DNA of 64,000 bases, taken from positions 310,001 through 374,000 of the forward strand of contig NZ_JANHMQ010000002.1 in the NCBI RefSeq assembly GCF_024609325.1, in the 5' to 3' direction. The DNA comes from Geothrix fuzhouensis. Its GTDB lineage: Bacteria > Acidobacteriota > Holophagae > Holophagales > Holophagaceae. Both the position numbers and the translations under genes were made by a program. The notes below the pieces were generated by a model. That model searched no databases, had not been told where the DNA came from, and saw nothing but the letters and a program-made list of their open reading frames with translations. Shown piece after piece: positions 12,263-52,631 of the stretch (positions within the stretch are counted from its first letter, which is position 1; each line of letters starts with the position of its first letter).

Positions 12263-14796
12263 CGGAGCCTCACACCCCGGCGCCAGGGGGCCGGGTCGGA
12301 AAGGACCTGAGGTCCCTGGGCCCGCGGCACGACGCCGCCCTGCGCGGGCACCAGGAGCACCTGGTCGTTGGGAAGGGGGAGCAGGTAGTTGAGCTGGAGG
12401 CCCAGCTGGCCTTCGGGGCCTTCCACGGGCGCCAGCCAGATCTCCGCCGGGGCCTGGAGGGCATCGAGCACGGCCTGGTTGGCGCCGGGGGCGGCGACCA
12501 CGCGGCCCGTGGGATCCGTCACCATGCCTTCCATAGGGGCGACCCTCGGCGGCGTGGGCGCCGGAGCCATGGGGCTGGTGGCGGGGCGATCCAGCCAGGA
12601 CCAGGCGGGGCTGCCTATGGGCAGGGGCTGCCAGGGCATGGCCTCCCGCGCCTGGCTGTCCAGGTAGCGGGCAAAGCTGGGGGCGCCCTTGCCGAAGCCG
12701 GCCTCGGGGGGCGTGTGCAGGCGCGGATCGGTGCTTTGGGTCACCTTGCGGTCGGCTTCCGCGGCCCGGATGCGGCAGCGGCAGCGGAAGCCCAGAGGTG
12801 GGGTGTGGGTGTCCCAGAAGGGATCGGTCTTGGGCCGGGTGACGCCATCGAGGATGCGGTGAGCAGGGCGCACCCGCTCATCTCCCGCCGTCACATAGGT
12901 CAGGTTCTGGACCAGGGGATTGGCCTGGAGGCCCGTCATCCGGCCGCCCATGTAGGCGCCATGGACCTGGGCATCGAAGGCCAGCCGCAGCCGATCCTCG
13001 GTGACGCCAAGGCCCGACAGTCGCGCCAGCCACGCGGCCTTCCACTCATCGAAGGGCGTCCCGGCGGCCAGGGCGTCGCCCATGGAGTCCTGGAGGTCCG
13101 TCAGCAGGTTCAGCTGGTCCACCCCAGCCACCCAGAAGGCCCGCGCCCGCAGTTCGGCATCCTTCAGACCTTCCACCTGGTCGAAGGTCAGGGGCAGCTT
13201 GCCCCGCAGCCAGGCCAGGGCCTGATCAGGCACCATGGCGTAGTCGATGGCGGGGCCGTCGGCCAGCTTGAGGGCCTGGGCTTCTTGGCCGGCCTCGAAG
13301 GCCCCCAGGTTCCGAGCCGCCTCCATGGCGGTGAAGAGCGCCTCCCCGGCACTGACCGGAAAGTCCCGGGCGACGGCCAGGGCTGCCGTCCAGGCATGGC
13401 CGAAGTCCTGGGCCTCCTGAAGGGCGGTGGCTACCAGTTGGGCCACCACGCCCTGGCGGCGGACATAGCCATCGGCCCACTGGGCCAGCATGGCGTCCGT
13501 GGGATCCAGGCCGGCATCCGCCAACTGAGCGGGATCGGGCTCGGGGGGGATTAGGGGAACCGCGGGCTTCCCAAGTGGCACCAGGTCCGCCACCGGGGCT
13601 TCGACCGGCTCCAGCTCGTCCTTGTCGTTCTGGGGCGCCGGGATGCCGAAGGTCTCCCGCAGCCAGACCACAGAAGGTTCCATCCCTTCTTTGCGAAGGG
13701 TGGTGACGGACGCCAGGCGATCCTTGAGGCTGGCCTTGACCTGCTTTTCCAGCCGGAAGAGCGGGGGCACCTCGTCGGGGCCCAGATTCAGGGTGACGAT
13801 CCAGGGGATGAGTGTGCGGTTGAGGGTGGCTTCGATGCGGCGGGCGTCCGCGCTCTCCTGACGGTCGGACTGCTCCTGGTGGACACCACCCAGGGCCTGG
13901 GTGCCGTGGCGCCCCTCGCTGGTGGTGAGCGTGTTGCCCAGGATGCCCGTGGCGATCTCAGCGTTCGCAGCGTCCACCAGCTTCACGCCCATCTCGAACT
14001 TGCTGTCGAGCTTGATGGGCTCGCAGGTCATCCCTTCGGGGATCACCACGCCGGGGCTGTCCATGAGCCTTGCGGCGATCTGGATGTAGCGGTTCTGCTC
14101 CTCATCCTGAGTGCCGTCCGGGTAGCGGAACACCATGCGGTCGTGGGCGTAGCGCGGATAATCCCGGTAGGTGGCATAGGCGATGGCCACCTTGACCCGC
14201 ACCCAGCGGGGGATGGTGCGGCCCCTGCCTAGGCCCCAGGGGTTGCGGAAGTGGCTGCCGTGCCGGTGCAGGATCAGCTTGCCGGGCTCGGCCACCTGGC
14301 CGCCCACCATGGGCTGGCGGTCGGGATCGAAGCTCAGGTGGATGGGCTCGAAACTCTCCAGGTCCACCGGCAGCAATTCGCCCTTCACCACGTCCCAGTG
14401 GACCTCCAGGGGCACCAGGCCGTAGTAGGCGGCCTTGGCCATTTCCTCGATGTCCTGCACCAGGTTCAGGCCCTTGAGGGCGCGGCGGACCAGGTCCATG
14501 GCCCGGGGCGACGTGCCCGGCTGGGGCACCAGGTCCCAGGGCAGATCGGCCACCACCTGGCAGCGCAGGTCCAGGCAGGCGGCGGCCTTGGGATCGCGCA
14601 GCGCGTCGTGCAGCTCGCGCCAGGTGCCGATGCCCTCGGTGCCCGTGTCCAGGTTGGGATTGAAGGTGCGGCCCAGGCCCAGCCAGGGGATCTGGTAGCC
14701 CGTGTCCCTCAGGACGCCCATCTGATTCGGAGCCTTCTTCTGGCCCTGGACAGGGGCACCCTGGCTGGCGGCGGAAGGACGGCGGCGGCGGGTCAC
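12259..14796 (-). CDS. portal protein (DUF935/Mu gp29) fused to MuF-type head morphogenesis protein
   Basis: 845 residues. Residues 1-400 fit the DUF935 portal: GVLRDTGYQIPWLGLGRTFN, then PLEVHWDV, HRHGSHFRNPWGLGRG and a helical stem/wing region. Residues after about 540 fit the SPP1 gp7/MuF family, with the conserved end DERVRPAHRILDGV and PLGFRCRCRI. In Mu these are two genes (gp29 and gpF); here they form one continuous frame. The portal is the DNA-entry ring and the MuF part a minor head protein carried with it. It overlaps the terminase gene by 4 nt. Confidence 0.88.
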   Translation of the reverse strand: MTRRRRPSAASQGAPVQGQKKAPNQMGVLRDTGYQIPWLGLGRTFNPNLDTGTEGIGTWRELHDALRDPKAAACLDLRCQVVADLPWDLVPQPGTSPRAMDLVRRALKGLNLVQDIEEMAKAAYYGLVPLEVHWDVVKGELLPVDLESFEPIHLSFDPDRQPMVGGQVAEPGKLILHRHGSHFRNPWGLGRGRTIPRWVRVKVAIAYATYRDYPRYAHDRMVFRYPDGTQDEEQNRYIQIAARLMDSPGVVIPEGMTCEPIKLDSKFEMGVKLVDAANAEIATGILGNTLTTSEGRHGTQALGGVHQEQSDRQESADARRIEATLNRTLIPWIVTLNLGPDEVPPLFRLEKQVKASLKDRLASVTTLRKEGMEPSVVWLRETFGIPAPQNDKDELEPVEAPVADLVPLGKPAVPLIPPEPDPAQLADAGLDPTDAMLAQWADGYVRRQGVVAQLVATALQEAQDFGHAWTAALAVARDFPVSAGEALFTAMEAARNLGAFEAGQEAQALKLADGPAIDYAMVPDQALAWLRGKLPLTFDQVEGLKDAELRARAFWVAGVDQLNLLTDLQDSMGDALAAGTPFDEWKAAWLARLSGLGVTEDRLRLAFDAQVHGAYMGGRMTGLQANPLVQNLTYVTAGDERVRPAHRILDGVTRPKTDPFWDTHTPPLGFRCRCRIRAAEADRKVTQSTDPRLHTPPEAGFGKGAPSFARYLDSQAREAMPWQPLPIGSPAWSWLDRPATSPMAPAPTPPRVAPMEGMVTDPTGRVVAAPGANQAVLDALQAPAEIWLAPVEGPEGQLGLQLNYLLPLPNDQVLLVPAQGGVVPRAQGPQVLSDPAPWRRGVRLR

Positions 14797-20231: not shown

Positions 20232-20720
20232 CTACCGCTTCGCCCAGCGACGCTGGGCTCCATTCACGCCCTTGACGTGCTCCATGAGGCCCTGGAGGGC
20301 TTCCATGGGCCAGGCCTCCAGGCGCTGAGGCGTGCCGTGGAGGTGGGGATGGTGAGTGCTGAGCCAGGCCACCACACGCTCCCGCACCCGCTGACGGCGG
20401 GCGGGCTCGGTGGCATCGAAGGCCCCCGCCGCCTCGGGCCGGTCCCACCCCGCCTCATAAGCCTCACGCAGGATGCGCCCGATGAGGCGGGTCTTGGGCT
20501 CGTCCTTGGGATCGGCGGGTCGCCGCACCTTCACGGCCTGCCCGCCGCGCAGGTGCTCCAGTGCCCGCAGCACCTGGCGGGCCCCGTCCTCGGACAAGTC
20601 CTTGCTGCTGCGCTTCCCCGCCACGTTCTCCAGGAAGTCCCGGTACACCTCATCCTCTGCCAGGCCGGGGATCTGCCCCCGCAGCGTGTGGATGATCTTG
20701 ATCTGGAGCGGCGTGCTCAT
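20232..20720 (-). CDS. GemA-like protein (DUF1018, Mu gp16)
   Basis: 162 residues, starting MSTPLQIKIIHTLRGQIPGL. The early IKIIHTLRGQI segment and the C-terminal LQGLMEHVKGV are typical of the Mu GemA family, which alters host gene expression and DNA supercoiling early in infection. In Mu it is a distal early gene. Here a cassette array separates it from the rest of the early operon. Confidence 0.82.
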   Translation of the reverse strand: MSTPLQIKIIHTLRGQIPGLAEDEVYRDFLENVAGKRSSKDLSEDGARQVLRALEHLRGGQAVKVRRPADPKDEPKTRLIGRILREAYEAGWDRPEAAGAFDATEPARRQRVRERVVAWLSTHHPHLHGTPQRLEAWPMEALQGLMEHVKGVNGAQRRWAKR

Positions 20721-20778: not shown

Positions 20779-20850
20779 GCTTACCTAGCGCACGGACGAT
20801 TTAGGCGAACCAGCGCGGCGCAGCGCAGTTCGTCTAATACAAAGTTAGGC
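20779..20850 (+). repeat. attC P1 (end next to gemA)
   Basis: Right core GTTAGGC at 20844-20850. Arms TTAGGCGAAC and GTTCGTCTAA enclose a GC-rich loop. The left core (ACCTAGC) is degenerate. It belongs to a different attC family from the other sites. Confidence 0.7.
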
Positions 20851-21153
20851 CGCTCGGCAGGCGTCGATGACAACCCGTGCCACGCGCATGACGTAGGCCA
20901 TTTCCGCCTTCGTTGCCTTGATGTTCCAGGTGAGATTGCGGGCCACGTAATCGGCGTCACAACCGGAAACGAACTCGCGCACCGTCTTGCCCGACATTCC
21001 GCCCCAGTAGGTCGTCCAGGCGCGGTTGTAGCAGGTGACGATGAGGTAGCCCTGTCCGGGCGCTATGTCGTGGAAGATCACGCGCACCGGGTCAAGACGG
21101 TCGGCATCCGAAACGACGATCCCGTTCAGCTTTTCGATCAGTTCAAGTGCCAC
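20845..21153 (-). CDS. cassette protein, phage-associated unknown family
   Basis: 102 residues, GTG start with GGAG eight bases before it. The stop TAA is formed by the core GTTAGGC of P1. The segments YLIVTCYNRAWTTYWGGMSG and VREFVSGCDADYVARNL resemble a small protein family seen in prophages and mobile elements of Proteobacteria; its function is unknown to me. It is an intact gene inside cassette P1-P2. Confidence 0.75.
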   Translation of the reverse strand: MALELIEKLNGIVVSDADRLDPVRVIFHDIAPGQGYLIVTCYNRAWTTYWGGMSGKTVREFVSGCDADYVARNLTWNIKATKAEMAYVMRVARVVIDACRAA

Positions 21154-21184
21154 TTTTTCTCCTTCGATTTGTCCGTTGTTCGCG

Positions 21185-21250
21185 GCCTAACCAAGTCGCT
21201 CAGCGTCGGACCCCGGCTGCGCCGTGGCCGAGCTAGCTCCGAAGTTGGGC
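21185..21250 (+). repeat. attC P2
   Basis: 66 bp. Cores GCCTAAC and GTTGGGC; arms GCTCAGCGTCGGACC and GGCCGAGCTAGC. Short site without an ATG in its loop. Confidence 0.8.
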
Positions 21251-21251
21251 G

Positions 21252-21455
21252 CTATCGGAAGGCTGTGAACTCAAGGCATTCCTCGTTGTGTATGACCTTC
21301 ACCAGCTCCAGGTATGCATCCGGGTGGTTCTCCTTCAATTCGCGGAACCAATTCCGAGCCACGCGCTCTCCGTCTTGATTCCAAGATTCGACCACCTCAA
21401 ATCGGTTGGTCTTTACGGTTGAAACCCGCTGTCTGATTTCAAAGGTGGTTCCCAT
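21252..21455 (-). CDS. small cassette protein, unknown
   Basis: 67 residues, starting MGTTFEIRQRVSTVKTNRFE, with GGAG before the ATG. The stop TAG lies 3 nt inside the core of P2. The charged, Trp/Phe-containing sequence (RVARNWFRELKENHPDAYLE) looks like a folded small protein. No family recognised. Confidence 0.7.
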   Translation of the reverse strand: MGTTFEIRQRVSTVKTNRFEVVESWNQDGERVARNWFRELKENHPDAYLELVKVIHNEECLEFTAFR

Positions 21456-21468
21456 CGTTTGCTCCTAC

Positions 21469-21555
21469 GCCCAACCAGGCGCTCAACCTTCACTCGCTTC
21501 GCTCGTCGGACCCGTCAGGCTGCGCCTGCCGGCCCGGGTTAGCTTTCCGTTAGGA
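21469..21555 (+). repeat. attC P3
   Basis: Cores GCCCAAC and GTTAGGA; arms GCTCAACC and GGGTTAGC, with an inner hairpin (CACTCGCTTCGCTCG). Its right core supplies the stop codon of the next gene. Confidence 0.8.
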
Positions 21556-21936
21556 CTTCCGCTCCCTCGGCTGTTCGTCCAGATCGTCGTCCTTGGCCTT
21601 GTAGTAGCCGCCGACGACAATCTGCTCGTAGGTATAGCGGTCCACCCACCACGTAGCCCGCTCCCACTTCTTCCCGTTGAACTTCTTGATGTCCACGCTG
21701 TAGCTGTCGGGGTAGAAAAAGAACATCGGGACCATCGTGATAGTGGTAGTTTTCCCGCTGCTCACGGTCATGGGCATCAGGATCATCTGTGTGTGGGCCG
21801 GGTGAAATTCCTTGGTCGCCACCACGCCCTCTTTCAGCGCGGGCTCACAGGCCAGGGCCAGCATCAGGGCGCAGCATCCAAGCAACGTCCTAACCCAGCG
21901 CTCAACTCGGACCCCGCCTGCATTGCTCTCTGCCAT
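21550..21936 (-). CDS. cassette lipoprotein-like protein whose start lies in attC P4
   Basis: 128 residues from the ATG at 21936, with GGAGG five bases before it, both inside the loop of P4. The first 17 residues (MAESNAGGVRVERWVRT) are read from attC. They lead into a hydrophobic stretch ending in Cys (LLGCCALMLALAC), a lipoprotein-type signal. The mature part contains SSGKTTTITMVPMFFFYPDS and ATWWVDRYTYEQIVVGGYY. The stop TAA is the core of P3. An internal ATG at the LALAC segment would be the alternative start. Confidence 0.7.
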   Translation of the reverse strand: MAESNAGGVRVERWVRTLLGCCALMLALACEPALKEGVVATKEFHPAHTQMILMPMTVSSGKTTTITMVPMFFFYPDSYSVDIKKFNGKKWERATWWVDRYTYEQIVVGGYYKAKDDDLDEQPRERKS

Positions 21937-21984
21937 GTCATCCTCCAGGCCCACGGCGGGGCCGGTTAGCTTCATTCGTTAGGC
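21888..21984 (+). repeat. attC P4, carrying a start codon
   Basis: 97 bp. Cores TCCTAAC and GTTAGGC. Its right arm, GCCGGTTAGCTTCATTCG, equals that of the chromosomal array sites. The loop contains, on the minus strand, GGAGGATGACATGG: a ribosome-binding site and ATG. Confidence 0.88.
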
Positions 21985-22374
21985 CGGGCCTTGGCCGAAA
22001 TGCTCGAAGTAAAAGACGACGCGCTTGCATGTCCCTTCCACCTGCCCGAAGTCCTCAGCCAGGCGGAAACCTGCTGAGTCGCGCCGAACTCGATCTACCT
22101 GGGCTTCGATTTCCTTCCTGAACCCTTCGACCGAATGAACGGATTTCCAGAGGTTGCAGCGACGGCAGGATGGGAACTTATCCGTTTCCGCGTCCCGTTC
22201 CTTTGCCCCAAGCAAGCCCCGGAAGACGGGCTGAACATGATCGACATGGAACCCCTTCTTGGGGATCTCCTGGCCACAATAGGCGCACCGGCCCGCGAAC
22301 CGTGCCCACACGGCGGCCCGGTCTAACCGTGCGCTCGACTCGGACCCTGCCTCGGGTGCGTTCTGCTTCGTCAT
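21979..22374 (-). CDS. HNH endonuclease, started inside attC P5
   Basis: 131 residues. The first 17 (MTKQNAPEAGSESSARL) are encoded by the loop and left arm of P5, with AAAGGAA before the ATG. The rest is an HNH nuclease: CAYCGQEI, then HVDHVQPVFRG and PSCRRCNLWKS, with zinc cysteines and catalytic histidine present. The stop TAA is the core of P4. It could cut incoming DNA or serve phage packaging, but its cassette location suggests independent cargo. Confidence 0.85.
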   Translation of the reverse strand: MTKQNAPEAGSESSARLDRAAVWARFAGRCAYCGQEIPKKGFHVDHVQPVFRGLLGAKERDAETDKFPSCRRCNLWKSVHSVEGFRKEIEAQVDRVRRDSAGFRLAEDFGQVEGTCKRVVFYFEHFGQGPA

Positions 22375-22420
22375 GTCGGTTCCTTTCTCCGGCAGGGCCG
22401 GTCAGCTTGGGCTGTTGGGC
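22321..22420 (+). repeat. attC P5, carrying a start codon
   Basis: 100 bp. Cores GTCTAAC and GTTGGGC. The loop carries, on the minus strand, AAAGGAACCGACATGACGAA. Nearly the same loop occurs in P9, although the genes they start are unrelated. Confidence 0.85.
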
Positions 22421-22421
22421 G

Positions 22422-22598
22422 CTACTTGTCCCCTTCATCGGCCAAGTCGCTGCCCATCCAGGGGTCAGGGTCATCTTGCTTCTGCACTTGTCCCTGCTTG
22501 TTCCTGGGCCTGTAGACATCAGCGCCGGGGCAGGTGTTGCAGTCCTCGTGCCCGTGCCACTTGCTCTCTTTGTCGAAACATCGTCGGTCGCAACTCAT
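22422..22598 (-). CDS. small Cys-rich cassette protein
   Basis: 58 residues from the ATG at 22598 (AAAGGAAG before it). CDRRCF, then HEDCNTCPG suggest a small zinc-binding protein. The C-terminal half is acidic and disordered. The stop TAG lies just inside the core of P5. Function unknown. Confidence 0.6.
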   Translation of the reverse strand: MSCDRRCFDKESKWHGHEDCNTCPGADVYRPRNKQGQVQKQDDPDPWMGSDLADEGDK

Positions 22599-22619
22599 CG
22601 CTTCCTTTCCGGGCATCGC

Positions 22620-22694
22620 GCCCAACCATCTCGCTCAACCCCGCTTCGCTCGGACCCGCGCAAGCGCGGCCCGTGTTAGCTCGGGGCGTTAGGC
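22620..22694 (+). repeat. attC P6
   Basis: 75 bp. Cores GCCCAAC and GTTAGGC; arms GCTCAACCC and GTGTTAGC with a short GC-rich inner hairpin. No start codon in the loop. Confidence 0.8.
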
Positions 22695-22976
22695 GCCTTC
22701 CAGCGCATCGTCTGCGAGCTTGTAAAGGAAGGTGTCGGTCCCCCTTGCATACTCGCGGATCTGTCGAAGAGCCTTCCGATGGCGATCCCTTTCCCGCTCC
22801 TGTATCAGGTTCATCTGCGCACGGAATAGGCCCGACTCTTCGGCAGTGATCTCCACCCGCTCCCCGCGCATGATTGCCTCGGTTTTTTCGGGAGACAGCA
22901 GCCCTAGGAAGGGGAGATCCCGCCTAACCACGGCGCTCAACTCGGACCCCGCCTTCCTTGATCTCTGCCATGTCAT
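22689..22976 (-). CDS. cassette protein started inside attC P7
   Basis: 95 residues. The reading frame begins at an ATG in the P7 loop (MTWQRSRKAGSELSAVVRR is attC-encoded) and ends with TAA in the core of P6. The body, ITAEESGLFRAQMNLIQERE followed by RDRHRKALRQIREYARG, is helical and charged. A second ATG 5 nt downstream has better spacing from GGAGG but is out of frame and stops after 15 codons. A start further inside is possible. No family recognised. Confidence 0.6.
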   Translation of the reverse strand: MTWQRSRKAGSELSAVVRRDLPFLGLLSPEKTEAIMRGERVEITAEESGLFRAQMNLIQERERDRHRKALRQIREYARGTDTFLYKLADDALEGA

Positions 22977-23019
22977 CCTCCTGGCCCACGGCGGGGCCGG
23001 TTAGCTGCATTCGTTGGGC
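22922..23019 (+). repeat. attC P7, carrying start codons
   Basis: 98 bp. Cores GCCTAAC and GTTGGGC. The loop, as in P4, has GGAGGATGACATGG on the minus strand, so two ATG codons in different frames follow one ribosome-binding site. Confidence 0.85.
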
Positions 23020-23020
23020 G

Positions 23021-23224
23021 CTACTCCCCAAACCCAGGAAGCATCTTCTTCTTCTGCCCGATGGTGTAGACGATGGCCGCGGTCCAGATGATCACTTGAA
23101 GCGTCCAGAAGACACCCCATCCCCAGCTTGGGATCTTCAGTCGGTCGCACAGAAGCCACATCGCCACCGAGTGCCAGAGGGGCAGCCGATATGGTAGGCA
23201 CTTGTCATCGATAACTGTCGGCAT
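23021..23224 (-). CDS. small cassette membrane protein
   Basis: 67 residues from the ATG at 23224; the frame is open to 23263, inside P8. Two hydrophobic segments (LPLWHSVAMWLLC and WGVFWTLQVIIWTAAIVYTI) precede a basic tail (GQKKKM). The stop TAG lies just inside the core of P7. Function unknown. Confidence 0.65.
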   Translation of the reverse strand: MPTVIDDKCLPYRLPLWHSVAMWLLCDRLKIPSWGWGVFWTLQVIIWTAAIVYTIGQKKKMLPGFGE

Positions 23225-23245
23225 TTTCACTTTCTCTCTCCACGC

Positions 23246-23343
23246 GCTCAACCAAGCGCTCAACTCGGACCCGATAGCCGTTGTGGTCCGTGTAGTTTTG
23301 AAAGTCCGGCTCGGCTATCGGGCCGGTTAGCTGGGCGTTAGGC
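23246..23343 (+). repeat. attC P8
   Basis: 98 bp. The left core is altered to GCTCAAC; right core GTTAGGC. Arms GCTCAACTCGGACCCGATAG and GGGCCGGTTAGC. The inner stem (CCGATAGCCG with CGGCTATCGG) is perfect. Confidence 0.8.
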
Positions 23344-23601
23344 CGCATCGTCCTTGACGATTTGGGGTGAAAGCATTAACCTGAATTGCCCGGAGGAGCA
23401 GTACAGTGGCTCCACTGAGCGCGAACCCGGAGGCATCCGATCGTGCGAAGTGGGAACGCTGGCCCCGAGACGTTCACTACGGCCCAGCTGGTGGTTCAGC
23501 ACTGGAGGGTTCGAGATACGGTGGACTAGATGCCCTGAACAGGTATCCCGGGCAACCAATCCGAAAGCCACCAACACGATTTGGTGGCTTTTTTTGGGCC
23601 T
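23344..23601 (+). ncRNA. cassette without a convincing gene; possible plus-strand RNA
   Basis: This cassette has no reading frame that looks like a protein. It ends with a strong plus-strand terminator at 23570-23595: AAAGCCACC, loop, GGTGGC, then seven T. A plus-strand transcript would follow the attC orientation, unlike the other genes here. The minus-strand frame that starts in P9 continues through it, but its composition after the first 30 residues is not protein-like. Confidence 0.4.
23570..23596 (+). terminator. rho-independent terminator inside the array
   Basis: Stem AAGCCACC with GGTGGCTT around an eleven-base loop, followed by T7. It is directed against phage early transcription. 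Confidence 0.75.
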
Positions 23602-23701
23602 GCCTAACCGTGCGCTCGACTCGGACCCTGCCTCAGGTGCGTTCTGCTTCGTCATGTCGGTTCCTTTCTCCGGCAGGGCCGGTCAGCTTGGGGCGTTAGG
23701 C
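23602..23701 (+). repeat. attC P9, carrying a start codon
   Basis: 100 bp. Cores GCCTAAC and GTTAGGC. The loop is almost identical to that of P5, including the ribosome-binding site and the codons for MTKQNAPEAGSESSARL on the minus strand. Confidence 0.88.
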
Positions 23702-23971
23702 CAGCTTCTTGATGGTCACTTCCCAGTCGCCCAACTTCTCAGCGCCGTGGGTAAAACCCTCGATGGTGGTCGTGCTGGTGGTGGCATTCATGTCGGCGGC
23801 GTGGCCAATCAGAATCAGCGCGGCACTCATCGTCCACACGCGCCCCTGCTCGTTCCCGATCTTCACGATGTCGAGGGCCACCTTCTTGGTGAGCTTTCCA
23901 ACCGCCTCATCGGGCAGTTCCAGCCAGGTCGCGGCGGCTTTTTCTTCTTCGGTCAAAATGAGTTCGGCCAT
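23696..23971 (-). CDS. cassette protein, unknown
   Basis: 91 residues, starting MAELILTEEEKAAATWLELP. A strong AAGGAGAAGG precedes the ATG at 23971, and the stop TAA is the core of P9. An acidic helical N-terminal half is followed by a Thr-rich strand (NATTSTTTIEGFTHG). It looks like an intact small protein of unknown function. Confidence 0.75.
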   Translation of the reverse strand: MAELILTEEEKAAATWLELPDEAVGKLTKKVALDIVKIGNEQGRVWTMSAALILIGHAADMNATTSTTTIEGFTHGAEKLGDWEVTIKKLA

Positions 23972-23992
23972 TCCTTCTCCTTGTTTTGTGGG

Positions 23993-24051
23993 GCCTAACC
24001 GGCTCGCTCAACCCGGACGCCTGACGGCGCCGGTTAGCTCGAAAGTTAGGC
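23993..24051 (+). repeat. attC P10
   Basis: 59 bp, the most compact site. Cores GCCTAAC and GTTAGGC; arms GCTCAACCCGGACGCC and GGCGCCGGTTAGC. Confidence 0.88.
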
Positions 24052-24207
24052 GTTTACAGGCGCTCGATAGCCCTTCTTGGCGACCCATCGCTGGAACAGG
24101 TCCGGGTGACGATAGGCTGGAATCCCGCGTTTGGTGAAGTGTGCATAGACGGCCTGCCTTATACGCCTCACCAATTCAAAATCGGTATAGCTCCACGCTT
24201 CAGGCAT
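24046..24207 (-). CDS. small cassette protein, unknown
   Basis: 53 residues from the ATG at 24207; a GTG directly before it is possible. The stop TAA is the core of P10. The sequence has a basic helix (DFELVRRIRQAVYAHFTKRG) and a Trp/Arg-rich end. It could be the end of a once longer gene, because the next site (P11) is incomplete. Confidence 0.55.
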   Translation of the reverse strand: MPEAWSYTDFELVRRIRQAVYAHFTKRGIPAYRHPDLFQRWVAKKGYRAPVNA

Positions 24208-24233
24208 CACTTACACCGTCGCTGCCAATCAGC

Positions 24234-24267
24234 TCTCTCAACCGGATTGCTCAACCCTGCTGCCTGA
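24234..24267 (+). repeat. attC P11 remnant, junction of array and phage gene
   Basis: TCTCAAC, spacer, GCTCAACC and CTGCCTGACGGG align with the left half of P10; the right arm and core are missing. The last codons and the stop of the phage gene at 24251-24475 lie inside this half site. Confidence 0.6.
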
Positions 24268-24475
24268 CGGGTCCATGAAGCTGAGCCAGGACTGCCCCCA
24301 CCCAAGCCTCGACCTCAGCCAGCGGACGGTAGATGACCTTCAACTCCCGGGGCTTGCGGTCGAGGCGCTGGAGGCTGATGACGGGCCGGCCCTGGTTGTC
24401 GCAGCCGCCCACGGCGTGGACCTTGAAGCGGCGGCCCTCGGGGCTGACGAGGGAGGTTCCGACCTTCAGGCTCAT
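24251..24475 (-). CDS. early phage protein, small beta-rich, end altered by the array
   Basis: 74 residues, starting MSLKVGTSLVSPEGRRFKVH and overlapping the upstream gene by 4 nt. The sequence looks like a small SH3-like or KOW-like fold (SPEGRRFKVHAVGGC, then PRELKVIYRPLAEVEAWVGA). The last eight residues and the stop come from the attC remnant, so the native C-terminus may have been longer. Confidence 0.65.
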   Translation of the reverse strand: MSLKVGTSLVSPEGRRFKVHAVGGCDNQGRPVISLQRLDRKPRELKVIYRPLAEVEAWVGAVLAQLHGPVRQQG

Positions 24476-29585: not shown

Positions 29586-30129
29586 AGCTGACTCCCTGAT
29601 TGGGGTCGAAGACCCGCTTCTGGCGCTTGTTCCACTGCGGGGCCTGGGGGCCGGTATCGCGCAGCAGCAGCCACCGCTGGGGGCCGCTGCGGGTGTAGGC
29701 GGGATCGAGAATCCCGACGTGGGCCAGGGCATTCAGGTAGCGGCGGGCATCTTCCCGAGCGTTGCCTTCGGTGCCTTTGGCGGCCAGCACCAGCAGCTCG
29801 TCCACCGAGGCCACCCGCTTGAGGCGCAGGGCCCGCCACAGGCGGGTTCGGAGCGTAGATGGGGCGAAGGGCGAGGGTCCATGGGGGCCCTTGGGGCCGC
29901 TGGTGATGACCTTACCGGAGGCCAGGTGCTTAAGGCCCTCGGGGGTGATGGCGTAGACGCCCTTCCAGCAATGGCGGACGAGGCCGCGTTCCATCAGGGC
30001 GTAGAGCGTGAAGCGGACCTGCGTGGGGGTCAGTTCCAGCCGGGCGGCCAGATCGCGCAGGGACACACGGTCGCCCAGGCGCTGGGGATCGGGCACCAGG
30101 GCTTGGAGGACGTGGTCGGCCACGCTCAC
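29572..30129 (-). CDS. winged-helix early phage protein
   Basis: 185 residues. LAARLELTPTQVRFTLYALM followed by ERGLVRHCWKGVYAITPEGL is a winged-helix DNA-binding pattern; a second such pattern lies near residues 105-150. It directly follows the B gene with a 4-nt overlap. Regulatory or replication role possible. Confidence 0.7.
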   Translation of the reverse strand: MSVADHVLQALVPDPQRLGDRVSLRDLAARLELTPTQVRFTLYALMERGLVRHCWKGVYAITPEGLKHLASGKVITSGPKGPHGPSPFAPSTLRTRLWRALRLKRVASVDELLVLAAKGTEGNAREDARRYLNALAHVGILDPAYTRSGPQRWLLLRDTGPQAPQWNKRQKRVFDPNQGVSYDLA

Positions 30130-30893
30130 TGCGGGTCCCCTTCTCGGCGGGCCAGGGGTTTCAGGACCTGGGGCTTCCGGGCCTGCCAGTCGTGGACCAG
30201 TTCCACGTCCTTGACCTCGGCCAGGCCGACGGTCTTGACCTTGCGGAGCCGGGCCACCCGCTCGCAGGCGGCCAGGCCGTTGAGCACCAGGCGCATCCGG
30301 CCCTCGGAGCGGACGTGGATCAGCTCGGCCACGTCATCCGTGATGGCGACGCCCTGCTCCAGCAGCATGGCGGCGGTGGCCCGCACATCCTCCAGGGTGG
30401 CGGGCTGGAAGGTGACGATGGTGGCGATGCGGCTCTGCACCTGGGGGTGCCGGGCGATCTTGTTTCGCACCTCGGCCATGCCCACCAGCACGGTGGGCAG
30501 GCGCAGCAGGTCGCTGAAGTCGCGGATGGCCTCCAGCACGCGGGTATCGGCCAGGGCGTGCTCGACCTCGTCCACCACCAGCACGTAGGGCTTGCGGGCC
30601 AGGGCGGCCAGGGCCTGCTTGAACATGTCCTCCGTCAGGCGGGTGGGCGCTTCGCCCAGCTCGGCCAGAAGGTCGTTCAGGAACCAGTGGCGGGTCCAGC
30701 CAGACTTGGCCCGCAGGTAGATGGCGTAGGGCTGCTGGGTTACGTACCAGCCAAGGGTCTCGGTCTTGCCCAAGCCGGGCTGGCCGGTCACCAGCATCAG
30801 GCAGGCCTCGACGGCCCCTCGCTCCTGGACGATGCTGACGCCGGCCAGGAGCCGACTGACGTTGGAAACGGTATGGCAGAATTGCTGGTGCAA
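30126..30893 (-). CDS. MuB-like AAA+ target-selection ATPase
   Basis: 255 residues. Walker A GQPGLGKTE near residues 37-45, Walker B VLVVDEVEHAL near 107, and a sensor-like VLVGMAEVRNKIARH. MuB forms ATP-dependent filaments on target DNA, activates the transposase and gives target immunity. The gene lies directly after the transposase gene, as in Mu. Length is near the usual 300. Confidence 0.9.
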   Translation of the reverse strand: MHQQFCHTVSNVSRLLAGVSIVQERGAVEACLMLVTGQPGLGKTETLGWYVTQQPYAIYLRAKSGWTRHWFLNDLLAELGEAPTRLTEDMFKQALAALARKPYVLVVDEVEHALADTRVLEAIRDFSDLLRLPTVLVGMAEVRNKIARHPQVQSRIATIVTFQPATLEDVRATAAMLLEQGVAITDDVAELIHVRSEGRMRLVLNGLAACERVARLRKVKTVGLAEVKDVELVHDWQARKPQVLKPLARREGDPQ

Positions 30894-30929: not shown

Positions 30930-33221
30930 CTAGGCGGGAATGCCCAGCTGTTGGCGAACCAAGGGGTTCTGGTCGAGATAGCGGTCGAAGTCGCGCCGCT
31001 CGGCGTCATCGGCGTCGTCGGGGTGGGTGAGCATGTAGCGGCACCAGTCCAGGCGGTCCTTGATGCCCGCCCGGCCCTGGGGGGCCAGGGTTTCGGGCTC
31101 GGGCACGGCCTGGACGGGCGTGGGTTCGGGCAGGCCCAGCTCGGCCATCTGCTCTTGGGCGCGGAGGAGCTGGTCGTCCGTCAGGTCGTTGATCTCGACA
31201 GGCGGCTGGGGGATCACCTTCAGGGTGGGCCGGCCAATCTGAAAGCCTTCGGCGGTGCGGATGCGGTCCCGCTCCAGTTCGGCCCGCTTGATGACAGCGA
31301 TCTGGGCCTTCTTGGCGTTCTGCATGATGCGGAGCGACACCACATCCGTGCCGGCGGCGCCCAGCTCGGGGCCATCGGGGACGAAGGTGAGGGTGTCCAG
31401 CAGCTCACCGCCTCGGCAGAGCCAGGCCTGGCGAACATCCCAGGGGGACAGACGCACAGTGAGGTTGTCGGCATTGATTTCATGCAGGATGGGGGCGCTG
31501 AAGCGGAGATCCTGGCCCTCGATCCGGCAGGTGACGTAGCCGCGCACCTTCTGGGCCTTGAGGCTGGGCAGCACGCGCCATTCCTCGCCGGGGCGGATGA
31601 ACCGGGGGTGTTCGGGCCCCAGTTCCTTCAGCAGGCGGGCCTTGGCCTGCTCCAGGGCCTGGCGGGGGTGGATCTGGTGGCCGTGGATGGTCCGGATGCG
31701 GTCCATTTCGGCCTGCCGGAAGGCCTCCAGCCGGAGGTTGAGGTTATCCAAAGTCTCGATCTGGCCCCGGCGCAGGGCCTCGGCGATGGGATCACCAGGC
31801 CGGGTACTGGGCGTTCCGCCTGTAAAGGTGGGGATAAGGGCTGAAAACCGCTGCTTCACGTTCAGGAAGTCGCGTTCCACGGGCTTAGACCGGCTGTTGT
31901 AGGGCAACGCGCCCCGCCACAGGGCCTCTCCGTCCTTCCAACCCATGCCGAGCTGGGGGAAGTAGCCCACCAGGTCGTCGTCGCCCAGGAAGAAGCGGTT
32001 GCGCACCTCGCGGCCGTTGTCGGACTGGATGGTCTCGGGGATGATGCCCGTGCGCAGGATGGCCTCGGCGATGGCCATGAACGGCAGGTAGCGGTTGAGG
32101 TTGTAGCCCACCGTCAGACTCAGCAGGGCGCCCGAGCCCACGTCCCGCACGGCATAGATGTTCGGGCGGAAGCCTTTGGGTTGCTCCCCGGGCAGCAGAT
32201 CCTCCCAGATCCACATGGAGTCTTCGGTGTGGCCGTCGATCGACCAGCACTGGAAGGGCAGGCTCGGGCGACGGCGGACGTAGGGCCCCAGGTCGGTCTG
32301 GGCCTTCCGGGCGCCAAATCTCAACCCCATGCGGATGGCGGGATCGAGGCTGCTGACCACCCGGCGCAGGGTGGCCTCGCTGATGGCGACACCCGCGGCC
32401 TGCAAGTACTCGGTGGCCAGGGCGAAGCTGCCGGAGTGGGCGAAGGCGCCCGTGATCTTGTCCAGCAGCTCGGGCTGCTGCTCGACCAGGCGGGGGCGGC
32501 CACAGGCGCTCCACTGGGGGCGCAGGGACTCCCCGGAGGGATCCTCGGCCAGGGCCGCCCACCACCTATTAAGGGAGCTGGTGCTGGGGATCTCCCCCAG
32601 GACCTGGCGCACGTCGTCAGCCTCCTGGGTGGTCAGCAGCCAGGTGATGGCGGCCTGGCGCACAGCCCCGGGCAGGCCCTTCTTGGTGGAGCGCCGCTGC
32701 GGGCCCTGCTCGGCCAGGAGGAGACGGGTCTTCTCCAGGAGCTTCAGCCGGGCCTGCTGGACCTGTCGCGCCCGCTGGAGGGCCTCGGGGTTGGCCCGTA
32801 GCACCACCTGCTGGGGATCCCGCTTGATCCGGGGTTCCACCGTGGCCACGGCCTGGGCCTGGGCGACCATGCGGGCCTCGTAGGCGGCGCGGGCCTCGGG
32901 CCACAGGGTGAAGACCGCCTCGGGAAGCGCCAAGTATTCAACCTGCCCTTTGCGCCGGGGATCGGCGCTGGGGATGGGTTCGGCTTCCAAGCGGCCAGAG
33001 GTCACGGCCTTGAAAATCGCCTGGCGGGACTTCCCGGTAAGTTGACCGATCTCAGGAAGGGTCAGCTTTCCGGTCCGCTGGTCGAACGCCGCGCCAGTGT
33101 TGAGGTTTCCGTTGGTTTCGACTGGTTGACCGTTTGACCGTTCGGAACGGTAAACCATCGGTAAACCAGATCGGTCAACCAGGCCCGACTCGGGCGGCAG
33201 TGGGAGAGCGAGGGTGCCCAT
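30930..33221 (-). CDS. MuA-type DDE transposase
   Basis: 763 residues. Residues 50-110 hold a Mu-type HTH (LPEIGQLTGKSRQAIFKAVT). The catalytic DDE core has Asp329 in CWSIDGHTEDSMW, Asp401 in TIQSDNGREVRN and Glu449 in SKPVERDF, with spacings close to MuA (269/336/392). The C-terminal part should contact MuB. It carries out integration and replicative transposition. Confidence 0.95.
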   Translation of the reverse strand: MGTLALPLPPESGLVDRSGLPMVYRSERSNGQPVETNGNLNTGAAFDQRTGKLTLPEIGQLTGKSRQAIFKAVTSGRLEAEPIPSADPRRKGQVEYLALPEAVFTLWPEARAAYEARMVAQAQAVATVEPRIKRDPQQVVLRANPEALQRARQVQQARLKLLEKTRLLLAEQGPQRRSTKKGLPGAVRQAAITWLLTTQEADDVRQVLGEIPSTSSLNRWWAALAEDPSGESLRPQWSACGRPRLVEQQPELLDKITGAFAHSGSFALATEYLQAAGVAISEATLRRVVSSLDPAIRMGLRFGARKAQTDLGPYVRRRPSLPFQCWSIDGHTEDSMWIWEDLLPGEQPKGFRPNIYAVRDVGSGALLSLTVGYNLNRYLPFMAIAEAILRTGIIPETIQSDNGREVRNRFFLGDDDLVGYFPQLGMGWKDGEALWRGALPYNSRSKPVERDFLNVKQRFSALIPTFTGGTPSTRPGDPIAEALRRGQIETLDNLNLRLEAFRQAEMDRIRTIHGHQIHPRQALEQAKARLLKELGPEHPRFIRPGEEWRVLPSLKAQKVRGYVTCRIEGQDLRFSAPILHEINADNLTVRLSPWDVRQAWLCRGGELLDTLTFVPDGPELGAAGTDVVSLRIMQNAKKAQIAVIKRAELERDRIRTAEGFQIGRPTLKVIPQPPVEINDLTDDQLLRAQEQMAELGLPEPTPVQAVPEPETLAPQGRAGIKDRLDWCRYMLTHPDDADDAERRDFDRYLDQNPLVRQQLGIPA

Positions 33222-34406: not shown

Positions 34407-34709
34407 TATTCCATTCTTTTTGACGCGCCGCAGCCGGTCGTCGTTCAACCCGGTCTCAAGGCCGCTAAATCCCATTCTTTTTGAAAGATTCTCGCGTCAA
34501 TCCGCAGCCGACCGCGCAATCTTTCTGCAAAACCACCGCGGCCCGAATCTCGGTCCAAACCCGCGCCGAATCTGAGCCCAACCCCCGTCGCGCCCTATCC
34601 CCGTCTCAGAGAATCATTTCGACGGTTCACACTGATCGCCTGCCAGTATTTTCGTGACTTCAAATGTCCCTCTTCCCGCCACGAAGAAGCCGCCTTTCGG
34701 CGGCTTCAG
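34407..34709. other. prophage left end region with repeated transposase-site candidates
   Basis: No gene. The 13-mer CCATTCTTTTTGA occurs at 34411-34423 and 34472-34484 in the same direction, each followed by a CGC-rich stretch and later CCGCAGCCG. Direct repeats near the end are expected for MuA-type binding sites (L sites). Further GAATC-type repeats follow up to 34620. The exact phage/host junction cannot be placed from sequence alone. Confidence 0.5.
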
Positions 34710-34802
<93 letters not shown>

Positions 34803-34885
34803 AAGGTCTCCCAGATTACCGTTGGGAGCGGATCGGCACAAGGCTTCTTGCCCAGAGCCGCGCCCAGCCTTCAAGATGGAGGCAC

Positions 34886-34975
34886 GGAGGGATGGCCGAG
34901 CGGTTTAAGGCAACGGTCTTGAAAACCGTCGTGGGTGTGAGCTCACCGCGAGTTCGAATCTCGCTCCCTCCGCCA
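34886..34975 (+). tRNA. tRNA-Ser(TGA)
   Basis: The 5' end GGAGGGATGGCCGAGCGGTT, anticodon loop CTTGAAA with TGA, a long variable arm, T-arm AGTTCGAATCT and encoded CCA. Plus strand, 83 bp from the divergent tRNA-Ser(GCT). Confidence 0.95.
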
Positions 34976-36970: not shown

Positions 36971-37031
36971 ACATGAAATCAGATTGGAGGAATCCACCCT
37001 CATCCCTGTCGTCACCGCTATCCTTGAGAAG

Positions 37032-37140
37032 TCCGAGGAGCGCTGCAGGACCCCACAGATTGGCTGTGCGGGATCTCAGGCTCGGACGCTCTCGATCAGG
37101 AACGGCGCTCACCTCACCCCTGTCCGGGGTCGATGAGGTG
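37032..37140 (+). promoter_or_regulatory. SAH riboswitch
   Basis: The conserved core is present in order: CCGAGGAGCGCTGC, then CAGGCTCGG pairing with the first strand, then AACGGCGCTCAC, which forms the pseudoknot-like pairing with GAGCGC. It binds S-adenosylhomocysteine and turns on the gene that removes it. A hairpin, CACCCCTGTCCGGGGTCG, follows and may be the expression platform. The ahcY start is at 37182. Confidence 0.93.
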
Positions 37141-49209: not shown

Positions 49210-49333
49210 GCCTAACAAACGAAGCAAACTGGCCCCATCTGCACCGTTGCGCGGGGTGGAGCCAACGTAGCGGGAAGCTGAGAGAGGGCAGAAGGCAATG
49301 CAGGCGGGGTCCGAGTTGAGCTGAGGGTTAGGC
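49210..49333 (-). repeat. attC C1
   Basis: Cores GGCCTAAC and GTTAGGC. The most divergent complete site of the array: its right half (AAACGAAGCAAACTGGCCCC on the plus strand) has changes in the arm, as expected for an old distal site. Confidence 0.85.
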
Positions 49334-49354
49334 TGCAGGTTAAGGAATTGCAGG

Positions 49355-49717
49355 TCATGGACCAACATGGTCAGGCTCAGGAATGATGGAAAGTGCAATT
49401 AATACAATTAAAATAATTAGCAAGGAATATTTTTTGCGATCAAATGATCTAACAGCGGCAAGACACAAAACGGTAAATTGAATGATTCTGATACAAGTAA
49501 TGGTTAGCAAATCGTTTGCAGTATAAGGAGATTGTAGATATAGGCCAAGGTGGTTTGCAATGATCCTGATAAAAAGTTTATCCAAATTGTATTCAAATCG
49601 AATCGGCCCATTGGTTAATGAAAAATACACTAAACTTACAATACCTGTGATGGCAGCCGAGGTGATAATGCCCAATAGAATATGTGAATTGCTTATGTCG
49701 TTTTGAGGCTTTTCCAT
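49355..49717 (-). CDS. cassette membrane protein, unknown
   Basis: 120 residues with three hydrophobic segments (ILLGIITSAAITGIVSLVYF; ITCIRIIQFTVLCLAAV; LLIILIVLIALSIIPEP). Low GC. Its attC is C1. Confidence 0.7.
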   Translation of the reverse strand: MEKPQNDISNSHILLGIITSAAITGIVSLVYFSLTNGPIRFEYNLDKLFIRIIANHLGLYLQSPYTANDLLTITCIRIIQFTVLCLAAVRSFDRKKYSLLIILIVLIALSIIPEPDHVGP

Positions 49718-49732
49718 CTGGGCTCCAGGGTA

Positions 49733-49857
49733 GCCTAACGAATGAAGCTAACCGGCCCCGCCTGCACCGAGGCGATGAACGAAGCCGAAGGAAGCAGGGA
49801 GATGAGAGAGAGCGAGAGGCAATGCAGGCGGGGTCCGAGTTGAGCGGAGGGTTAGGC
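49733..49857 (-). repeat. attC C2
   Basis: 125 bp, one base longer than the standard. Cores GCCTAAC and GTTAGGC; arms GAAGCTAACCGGCCCCGCC and GGCGGGGTCCGAGTTGAGC (plus strand). Confidence 0.9.
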
Positions 49858-49919
49858 AGCCGGGAAGTACATTGATAGTGATGAGTGATTCATATTTGTT
49901 TTGAATCATCAGAATCGGA

Positions 49920-50225
49920 TTAATCATTCGAATATAACCACGATTTGGGTTTGGGCTTTTGTTTTCCGAAGAACATAACTAACCAAATTAATGAAAATGG
50001 CGCTAAAGAGAGCAAAACAATTCCGAATGTCATAATATCCAGTGGTAATAAAAGAATGTGAATTCCGTAATATGAGCCAAAACAAATTAGATAAATCTTT
50101 CGGCACTTGTCTACGTTTGGATGTTTTCTATAAAATAAATATAAAATGGAAATAAGCAAACAAAATGAAACTGAATATCGCCAATGGAAAAGAAGAAATT
50201 CAATGTTTCGGATGCCTAAGAGCAT
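49920..50225 (-). CDS. cassette membrane protein, unknown
   Basis: 101 residues with three or four hydrophobic segments (SVSFCLLISILYLFYRK; YYGIHILLLPLDIMTFGIVL; FSLIWLVMFF) and a basic tail (GKQKPKPKSW). Its attC is C2. Confidence 0.7.
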   Translation of the reverse strand: MLLGIRNIEFLLFHWRYSVSFCLLISILYLFYRKHPNVDKCRKIYLICFGSYYGIHILLLPLDIMTFGIVLLSLAPFSLIWLVMFFGKQKPKPKSWLYSND

Positions 50226-50232
50226 GATGGCT

Positions 50233-50356
50233 ACCTAACGAATGAAGCTAACCGGCCCAACCGCAGCCGGGCGCAGAGTGGAGAGCGGAAATCCAAACGA
50301 ACGAAGGAGAGCGGAAGGCAAGGGCGGTTGGGTCCGAGTTGAGCTAAAGGTTAGGC
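50233..50356 (-). repeat. attC C3
   Basis: Right core (minus strand) GTTAGGT instead of GTTAGGC; arm CCAACCGCAGCC deviates from the common CCCCGCCTGCACC. It belongs to copy A of the repeated cassette. Confidence 0.85.
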
Positions 50357-50670
50357 CGAGCCCTAAGCATTGACACCCCGAACACGCGGCGCGCTTGAAT
50401 TTGAACCTGCTTGAGCGAGAGCGAAAGTTCATGCCGACGAGCCCAAAGGAGAACACCGGAGTTATCGCGTGAAAGTGAAGGCCAAGATGCTGAAGTGACC
50501 TCGATGATCGCAGAAATCCATGGGCCGATGGTTGATGAGTAAGCGATAACCCGATTCAGTAGAACCAGAAGACCGAGAAATGATGCGGGTTTGCCGCCGG
50601 AGCAAGCCAGGCTGACGAAGCTGGGCCAGAACCCCACCACCAAGCAGACAGAAAGAGACGGGCGAACGAG
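50357..50670 (-). repeat. repeated gene-poor cassette, copy A
   Basis: One of four related cassettes (A-D). GTTATCGC (50461-50468) and GCGATAAC (50543-50550) bound a 90-nt core. On the minus strand the core reads VIAYSSTIGPWISAIIEV. The reading frame from 50643 runs through it but, unlike B-D, carries a one-base deletion near its end. A second frame starts at 50432 (MNFRSRSSRFKFKRAACSG) and runs 65 codons through attC C3. Confidence 0.8.
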
Positions 50671-50794
50671 GCCTAACGAATGAAGCTAACCGGCCCCGCC
50701 TGCACCGAGGCGATGAGCGGAGCCGAGGAAGCGAGACGAAGAGAAAGAGCGAAAGGCAATGCAGGCGGGGTCCGAGTTGAGCGGAGGGTTAGGC
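50671..50794 (-). repeat. attC C4
   Basis: Standard 124-bp site with GCCTAAC and GTTAGGC. It belongs to the secreted protein at 50811-51143. Confidence 0.92.
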
Positions 50795-50810
50795 AACTTG
50801 GGCCACAATA

Positions 50811-51143
50811 CTATTTCATTTGAATACCGCGAAGCCGGTCGGCACGAGCCACCAATTTCCCTGATGGAGAGCGGAATTCTAAACTTCGAGCTTGGCCTGT
50901 TACGCACGCATCAGCGTTTGCATACGTGGTGACGATCCCTTCCGTTTGCCGGTCGGACCAGGAGAAGTAGTCCTGTCCAAGGGTGACTACCACCCACCCA
51001 TCTTCTACTGCGACACTGGCGACGATATACGGGCGCATCTTGGCCAAGGCCTTTTTCGCAGCAGCCTTATCGCAAGCGTGAGCTTGGGTGGCCGTGAAAG
51101 CGGCGAGAACAACAACAAGAGAAAATCTGGTCAATCGCGCCAT
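50811..51143 (-). CDS. secreted cassette protein, unknown
   Basis: 110 residues with a signal peptide (LTRFSLVVVLAAFTATQAHA). The mature protein has two Cys and a compact alpha/beta pattern (AVEDGWVVVTLGQDYFSWSD). A periplasmic role is likely; family unknown. Confidence 0.72.
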   Translation of the reverse strand: MARLTRFSLVVVLAAFTATQAHACDKAAAKKALAKMRPYIVASVAVEDGWVVVTLGQDYFSWSDRQTEGIVTTYANADACVTGQARSLEFRSPSGKLVARADRLRGIQMK

Positions 51144-51170
51144 GACTACTCCTGTTTGATTGATGAAGCT

Positions 51171-51294
51171 GCCTAACGAATGAAGCTAAGCGGCACCGCC
51201 TGCACCGAGGCGCTGAACGAAGCCGAGATAGCGAGAACAAGAAAGAGGACGGAAGGCAATGCAGGCGGGGTCCGACTTGAGCGAGAGGTTAGAC
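51171..51294 (-). repeat. attC C5 (read-through subtype)
   Basis: Right core GTTAGGC, left core GTCTAAC. Arms differ from the others (GAAGCTAAGCGGCACCG; TCCGACTTGAGCGAGAGG on the plus strand) and resemble those of C11. The gene of this cassette is read through the whole site. Confidence 0.9.
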
Positions 51295-51754
51295 GCCACC
51301 GTTTGAAACGATCGATCATGTAACTGAGAAGATTGAGGAGAATTAGATATACAGGCAACCCGTAAAGTAGGTGCAGGCGAAATATTTTGCTGAAGAAAAC
51401 AGTTCGATTCAAGGAGAACCAACCATTGTCGGGGGTCCAATGAGTCGAAATAAATTTAGTTTCGTGCCGCGGCCCCAAGTTGAGATTTTGTGGCACCTCG
51501 TAAGGTTCCGGGTACCCAATTAGCTTAGAAACAGGGCCCTGAAAGAGGTAAACAGGAACTTCGAGGATCCTTGCAACGAGGATGTGAGTTCCCATCCAAC
51601 GCTTGTGTTCCAAAGGGTAGGCGTTTTCTGAAACTACCCAGATGTAGGTAAGAATTAGGAACGACCGGATGAGATGCCCAATTTGAACGAAAACCCGGCG
51701 AGCCCACTCCGGAACGTTGGACAGAACGATTGGGGATTGGAATTTGAGGGTCAT
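51173..51754 (-). CDS. cassette membrane protein with attC-encoded C-terminus
   Basis: 193 residues. Membrane segments at residues 26-44 (IGHLIRSFLILTYIWVV) and 131-149 (LLYGLPVYLILLNLLSYMI). The frame does not stop before attC C5: about 40 residues are encoded there, starting LTSRSSRTPPALPSVLF and ending VQAVPLSFIR, with the stop TAG in the core. The tail contains a further hydrophobic stretch (VLFLVLAISASFSASVQA). Confidence 0.7.
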   Translation of the reverse strand: MTLKFQSPIVLSNVPEWARRVFVQIGHLIRSFLILTYIWVVSENAYPLEHKRWMGTHILVARILEVPVYLFQGPVSKLIGYPEPYEVPQNLNLGPRHETKFISTHWTPDNGWFSLNRTVFFSKIFRLHLLYGLPVYLILLNLLSYMIDRFKRWRLTSRSSRTPPALPSVLFLVLAISASFSASVQAVPLSFIR

Positions 51755-51764
51755 GGTGAGTGGC

Positions 51765-51888
51765 GTCTAACGAATGAAGCTAACCGGCCCCGCCTGCACC
51801 GAGGAGATGAGCGGAGCCGAGATAGCGAAATGCTGAGAGAGAACGGAAGGCAATGCAGGCGGGGTCCGAGTTGAGCGTAAGGTTAGGC
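51765..51888 (-). repeat. attC C6
   Basis: Standard site, right core (minus strand) GTTAGAC, left core GCCTAAC. It closes the two-gene cassette 52048-52835. Confidence 0.92.
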
Positions 51889-51972
51889 GGCCGAGTAATT
51901 AGTGATGTTTTAAAATATGAATTATAATATGTTTAAATAATTTTCGATAAATATTTTAGATACTCACATGAT

Positions 51973-52026: not shown

Positions 52027-52047
52027 TTTATTCAAACGATGATTCCA

Positions 52048-52617: not shown

Positions 52618-52631
52618 TTGTCAATCTCCTT

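Follow-up and report, generated by a model that had tools for sequence, protein, structure and literature searches.

How can integron cassettes be loaded and expressed in a phage that has no integrase gene of its own? This question is raised by a 64,000-nucleotide stretch of the 3.3-Mb genome of Geothrix fuzhouensis, which comprises bases 310001–374000 of a 909-kb contig and is called the window below. It contains a Mu-like prophage with an array of attC sites and small genes in its early operon, between gemA and another early gene, as described in the initial annotation. The large chromosomal array mentioned there was also found, starting 25 kb away at position 49210. The reading that we favor, with a probability of about 75%, is that the phage array is an integrase-less integron platform in the early operon, which is loaded in trans by the integron integrase (IntI) of the host and the cassettes of which are reversed relative to those of the host.

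The attC sites were searched with a covariance model (R1) trained solely on 19 attC sites from the chromosomal integron of the host. In positions 1–47000 of the window, the model gave exactly nine matches, all on the plus strand (P2–P10, 21185–24051) and with E-values from 2.5e-16 to 0.53. The same nine sites were returned by an independent box-grammar scan that used general R boxes and allowed the spacers to vary, at scores of 25–48, the chance level being 0.8 random hits per 46 kb at a score of 21. A rigid position matrix derived from the host attC sites overlooked sites with other spacer lengths, and the flexible grammar and the covariance model were used instead. The attC architecture, consisting of R''-L''...L'-R' boxes, an unpaired spacer and bulged bases on the L'' arm, is present in P2–P10 and absent from P1. 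When folded, the operon-sense strand of P4, P5, and P9 forms an L-box hairpin, one arm of which contains three bulged bases; closure of the R-box helix is seen in P4 and P9 and not in the best fold of P5. An additional attC remains as left half only (about 24236–24270) at the far end of the array, where it is fused into the end of the neighboring phage gene. The attC array in the prophage is real and lies far above chance. Nine of the ten attC-like sites counted in the initial annotation were confirmed, and the scoring with a covariance model, proposed there as a check, was passed by all sites except P1. As an attC, P1 was ruled out by the covariance model and the grammar scan; it matches attI instead. 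P4 and P7, which had been reported to share their right arm with the host array, have both arms in common with it.

IntI cuts the R' box at G/TT, where the slash marks the cut. P1 has the features expected of an attI site, as it seems to be unstructured, has an AAAG/TTRRRY core, is located at the array head and follows the array polarity. A similar core is found in attI1 of class 1 integrons. The cut would be expected between 20844 and 20845, and an inverted partner of the site, TTAGGCGAAC, is located at 20801–20810. The host attI, located ahead of the first integron cassette, reads GTCGTCCAATTCAAAG/TTAGGC, compared with GTTCGTCTAATACAAAG/TTAGGC in P1. The same motif heads the phage arrays in L137, L142, L077, L186, L187, L061, and L122, always in attC polarity. 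The attI matrix gave scores of 34–41 at the array-head sites, whereas the best score elsewhere in 2.5 Mb was 15.5. Support independent of the matrix comes from the host attI, from weaker relatives in L045 and L058, and from the genus, in which a pattern search gave 17 matches versus 0 for a reversed control pattern. The array has at least two attC sites and no integrase nearby, which makes it a cluster of attC sites lacking an integrase (CALIN) rather than a complete integron with an integrase gene beside attI, and it has an attI-like site in addition. Judged by these motifs, the phage appears to bear an integron platform, i.e., attI and cassettes, without an integrase gene.

In the host genus, attI-like sites were found at several places per genome (L196–L212), for example three in G006 and two each in G012, G030, G046, and G049, and these dispersed sites mostly adjoin attC arrays. 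One integrase may serve many dispersed attI platforms in this genus. At the start of contig 1 of G006, the chromosomal array L024 is located close to a folE-like gene. Its attI is of the phage type, and one of its cassettes is also found in phage L122; no integrase was seen within the 3 kb of sequence examined.

On the minus strand, the prophage genes are ordered as A, B, a DnaQ-like gene, the array, gemA, lysis genes, terminase, and portal and head genes. A and B, the gemA-type gene, the TG terminus and the differing insertion sites in relatives characterize a Mu-like transposable phage. The terminus TGTGAACC, located at 34632, also occurs in two sister prophages, whose adjoining flanks differ. 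The opposite prophage end and a host target duplication were searched for and not found; the far end lies to the left of the window. In the sister prophages L012 and L013 (gemA with 83 and 80% identity), the interval from the DnaQ region to gemA is occupied by ordinary back-to-back small genes and gave no attC in searches that included the covariance model. The empty gemA locus, for which a comparison with related prophages had been suggested, is thus represented by two relatives without array genes and attC sites. The related phage L054 (B with 94%, transposase with 73% identity) has an array in the same operon with the same attC types and polarity, which is cut by the contig end.

The cassettes of phage and host differ in their layout. 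In the host arrays, attC and gene direction agree in 97 of the 108 inter-attC segments at 26 loci, as judged by the longest open reading frame (ORF). In the prophage, all nine attC sites are on the plus strand and all genes on the minus strand, which departs from the ordinary host-type layout. A codon model trained on other genes of the same phage prefers the minus strand in nine of ten cassette bodies; the model is uninformative for the host cassettes with lower guanine-cytosine (GC) content, for which ORF length was used. In the reversed layout, transcription passes the cut before it reaches attC, so that the mobile unit consists of attC followed by the gene. The gene commonly ends with a TAA within the next R box (GCC-TAA-C).

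Furthermore, the IMG/VR viral collection was scanned with a pattern for the attC right arm, which is blind to gene direction. The viral set was mainly drawn with one attC family, and the following counts apply to the viral loci gathered in this way, not to all phages. The orientation of the longest ORF in viral segments (54 inverse, 20 sense) is noisy in GC-rich DNA, and therefore the codon model was adopted for them. Among the matches listed, 154 viral attC sites comprise 98 inverse sites, one sense site and 55 sites without a polarity call; 49 of the 50 assignable viral contigs among these matches are inverse-only and one is sense-only. The phages in this set are diverse, as their loci encode terminase and portal, DNA polymerase and helicase, annealing proteins, or a tyrosine integrase. 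The inversion is not universal among phage CALINs. An automated hairpin search gave nothing for the Tetrasphaera phage TJE1; when the same polarity rule is applied to its sequence by eye, attC and genes agree. Taken together, this suggests that phages run a parallel gene-swapping system which relies on the host recombinase.

In addition, the reversed layout places translation signals inside attC. A Shine-Dalgarno sequence and a start codon were found in the terminal loop of 57 of 117 long phage attC sites, where a start was counted if its frame runs at least 35 codons beyond attC. The controls gave 1 of 120 for the opposite strand of phage attC sites, and 3 of 123 and 0 of 122 for host attC sites. 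The attC arm encodes a leader, e.g., AGSESSA, GGVRVER, or GPVERGV, and different proteins bear leaders that are nearly the same. In the family of the 95-amino-acid (aa) protein of cassette 6, protein conservation in five phages sets in directly at the R box. In most pairs, with L045 as the exception, codon changes in the stretch from the R box to the first internal methionine are mostly synonymous, and in none of the four relatives of the window copy was a possible start seen between loop and conserved region. Very probably, translation of this family starts in attC, and a start in attC can be assumed for the remaining families. In the same family (window 22689–22976; L045, L072, L137), the N-terminal half is kept and the C-terminal halves of several relatives are unrelated. 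Such swaps within a gene are unexplained by cassette recombination.

Cassettes of the array were also found in other, unrelated phages. Cassette 2 recurs in L052, a prophage with a tyrosine integrase in another genome; the DNA is 85% identical from precisely G/TT onward and unrelated outside. Cassette 6 recurs in a third phage, L053, and is 84% identical with similarly sharp ends at the cut. These are the positive results of a search for the same cassettes in phage genomes, as advised in the initial annotation; no DNA match of the array to isolated phages was found in the GenBank phage collection. A short cassette with 86% identity is common, from cut to cut, to the IMG/VR phage L122 and the chromosomal array L024 in another genome of the genus, and phage-type attC sites with reversed genes stand beside ordinary host cassettes in the host arrays L022 and L059. 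Based on the common cassettes and the phage-type attC sites in host arrays, cassettes seem to pass between phages as well as between phage and host. It is plausible that the phage spreads cassettes to new hosts. The array of phage L122 also contains a host-type attC of 124 bp (12565–12688; 137 bits with the host model), apparently from a host cassette that was taken up. None of 12 viral records contains an integron integrase over the cut-off, and the only one in the whole Geothrix genome is located in the chromosomal integron (intI at about 77622 in window numbering, outside the window). This makes the host integron integrase the likely agent of the exchange.

The exchange could also proceed by homology and without any integrase, if the hairpins were repeats conserved between genes and if annealing or recombination proteins of the phages (Sak4, RecE/T type) shuffled the genes at these repeats. 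Several of these phages do encode annealing proteins, and near-identical attC sequences joined to different genes would fit such shuffling as well. However, the homology of the common cassettes begins sharply at the R-box G/TT and is not scattered through the repeat of about 100 bp, the arrays begin at attI-like sites, and the three bulged bases and unequal attC arms are kept, which makes this explanation unlikely.

Alternatively, the phage could be a passive carrier of a host cassette block from a single chance capture, in which the attC sites are relics of accidental orientation. A host array of the same attC family is located 25 kb away, and the last attC of the phage array is truncated. 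Nevertheless, the nearby host cassettes are sense and mostly lower in GC, whereas the phage cassettes are inverse, mostly have 56–61% GC and use phage-like codons. Neither the prevalence of the inverse layout in the viral contigs nor the cassettes in common with other phages would be expected from a single capture, which we regard as improbable. Finally, it is hardly credible that the bulged-base arm lies on the other side in this attC family and the phage cassettes are ordinary, since, even though the polarity was inferred from sequence and low-frequency top-strand attC recombination exists (PMC9892861), the same rule gives sense for the host sites and, by eye, for TJE1, the host attC polarity fits the position of intI and attI, the covariance model assigns the same strands, the phage attI-like site follows the attC and not the gene polarity, and the phage-host contrast stands whichever strand is called bottom.

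The features of the array and of its surroundings are listed in Table 1. The cargo in the window consists of an HNH-like protein, a lipoprotein-like protein and small proteins of no recognized domain. Other arrays of the class carry two Lar restriction-alleviation proteins, two C5 cytosine methylases, a Dam-type methylase and a weak match to Mom, which fits early counter-defense genes. The cargo probably comprises counter-defense and other accessory genes, and a counter-defense role may extend to the unnamed genes found here. Cassette 8 has an open frame (23338–23655) without phage codon usage. Its sequence (window 23338–23601) includes a terminator-like hairpin with a T run, CCACCAACACGATTTGGTGGCTTTTTTT, at about 23569–23596 on the plus strand, opposing the operon. 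This cassette may encode a small RNA. Just beyond the transposition-gene end of the prophage, two divergent tRNA-Ser genes are located at 34710–34975, and an S-adenosylhomocysteine (SAH) riboswitch (RF01057, 52 bits) was identified on the plus strand at 37029–37117.

Table 1. Positions of the array components, prophage genes and host integron in window numbering; the strand of a cassette is that of its attC, gene strands are given in brackets.
Feature	Position	Strand	Remarks
attI-like site (P1 of the initial annotation)	20828-20850	+	GTTCGTCTAATACAAAG/TTAGGC; matches host attI and proximal ends of other phage arrays
Cassette 1	20845-21244	+	102-aa gene 20845-21153 (-), attC P2
Cassette 2	21245-21549	+	67-aa gene 21252-21455 (-), attC P3; counterpart in phage L052
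Cassette 3	21550-21978	+	lipoprotein-like gene 21550-21936 (-), start codon in attC P4 loop
Cassette 4	21979-22414	+	HNH-like gene 21979-22374 (-), start codon in attC P5 loop
Cassette 5	22415-22688	+	small gene 22422-22625 (-), attC P6
Cassette 6	22689-23013	+	95-aa gene 22689-22976 (-), frame opens in attC P7; counterpart in phage L053
Cassette 7	23014-23337	+	small membrane-protein-like gene 23021-23263 (-, start uncertain), attC P8
Cassette 8	23338-23695	+	no convincing gene; attC P9
Cassette 9	23696-24045	+	91-aa gene 23696-23971 (-), attC P10
Truncated last cassette	24046-24270	+	53-codon gene 24046-24207 (-) and left half attC fused to upstream phage gene
attC P2	21185-21250	+	covariance model and grammar scan
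attC P3	21469-21555	+	covariance model (weak) and grammar scan
attC P4	21888-21984	+	covariance model and grammar scan
attC P5	22321-22420	+	covariance model and grammar scan
attC P6	22620-22694	+	covariance model (weak) and grammar scan
attC P7	22922-23019	+	covariance model and grammar scan
attC P8	23246-23343	+	covariance model and grammar scan
attC P9	23602-23701	+	covariance model and grammar scan
attC P10	23993-24051	+	covariance model and grammar scan
gemA-like gene	20232-20720	-	downstream of array
Mu-type B (ATPase)	30126-30893	-	transposition gene
Mu-type A (transposase)	30930-33221	-	transposition gene
Prophage end on transposition-gene side (TGTGAACC...)	34625-34632	-	common to sister prophages
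Host chromosomal integron, part	49210-64000	-	first attC at 49210; array and intI extend past window

If the platform is loaded by the host as proposed, the chromosomal IntI would load, exchange and remove the phage cassettes in trans. By insertion at attI beside gemA, new cassettes would enter the promoter-distal end of the array, and their genes would be expressed from the phage early promoter, with attC doubling as a translation start that would encode the first 10–30 residues. The coding strand is the recombining (bottom) strand of attC. Replication of the Mu type proceeds with early transcription, and if this also applies to the present phage, the lagging-strand template would be the strand that recombines. 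A bottom strand of attC placed on the lagging-strand template sharply raises cassette excision in Vibrio cholerae, and host integrons as a rule have an orientation that avoids this placement (PMC11023631). Additionally, the reversal would silence each pool in the arrays of the other, as the cassette would point away from the promoter in both cases, from the cassette promoter Pc when a phage cassette is in a host array and from the early promoter when a phage array has received a host cassette. For the whole class, it is rather likely that phages of these hosts, Mu-like and others, keep a separate mirror-image cassette pool, in which attC is followed by an opposed gene with a start codon in the loop and a stop in the next R box, and which is loaded by the host integrase at a phage attI. 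Its cassettes would be interchangeable with those of the host and mutually silent, and attC would serve both as recombination site and as translation start.

Several points weigh against the proposed loading and reversal. The explanation rests on sequence analysis. The codon model was trained on a single phage, and a polarity call is lacking for 55 of the 154 phage attC sites among the matches listed. P3 and P6 are the weakest sites by the covariance model, though without competitor in 47 kb, and six of the sites found by the attI matrix were also used to train it. The viral records are often fragments, and an integrase could be located elsewhere. The replication direction of the phage is assumed from Mu, and most cargo of the class, as well as all genes here except the HNH-like gene, has no recognized domain.

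As a kind, phage CALINs are already known and therefore not new. Qi et al. (2023; PMC9892861) reported three complete integrons and 17 CALINs in phage genomes. Those CALINs resemble the present array as integrase-less attC cassettes in phages, have methylase cargo, and some of them were recombined with IntI1. In contrast, no systematic inversion is reported and starts in attC are not mentioned in the accessible part of the study, TJE1 from that set is sense by the present rule, and the single CALIN given there with an attI but no intI is that of a cryptic Shewanella prophage, which has a complete integron as well. The initial annotation knew of no described case of cassettes in the gemA operon. 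This holds for the open-access literature, in which no report of cassettes in Mu-like phages, gemA operon included, was found, but integron cassettes of phages as such had already been reported (PMC9892861). The open-access literature likewise gave no report of systematic cassette inversion, start codons inside attC, or attI platforms without intI in non-cryptic phages.

The sedentary integron of the host has the same attC family, a similar attI and the same G/TT core as the phage array, but differs in having genes in attC orientation, an integrase, attC sites of nearly all 124 bp and cassettes of mostly lower GC. Dispersed integrase-less arrays, as in Alteromonas (PMC4119200) and at the attI-like sites in the genus, are likewise located away from intI, in the genus often with an attI-like site of their own. 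However, they are chromosomal and not on a mobile element, and their genes follow the attC orientation where it is clear. The nearest precedent for translation signals within an integron recombination site is ORF-11 of attI1 (PMC8876359), a short separate peptide that couples to the first cassette, whereas the phage cassette gene would have its own start in the loop of its own attC. The inverted V. cholerae integron (PMC11023631) has the bottom strand on the lagging-strand template and high excision, both of which are predicted for the phage. There, the whole chromosomal array was inverted experimentally, whereas in the phage the gene is reversed relative to attC in each cassette.

Integron cassettes have so far been treated as a bacterial property with one fixed layout. 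A widespread reversed pool would, if true, mean that phages swap early genes, including anti-restriction genes, in a site-specific manner without a recombinase of their own, and it would link integrons with the phages of their bacterial hosts. According to the open-access literature, an attC with an internal start codon is apparently a new kind of translated recombination site. As attC polarity would be reversed naturally in these phages, a comparison of phage and host arrays would allow the roles of strand choice, replication direction and translation from attC hairpins to be tested.

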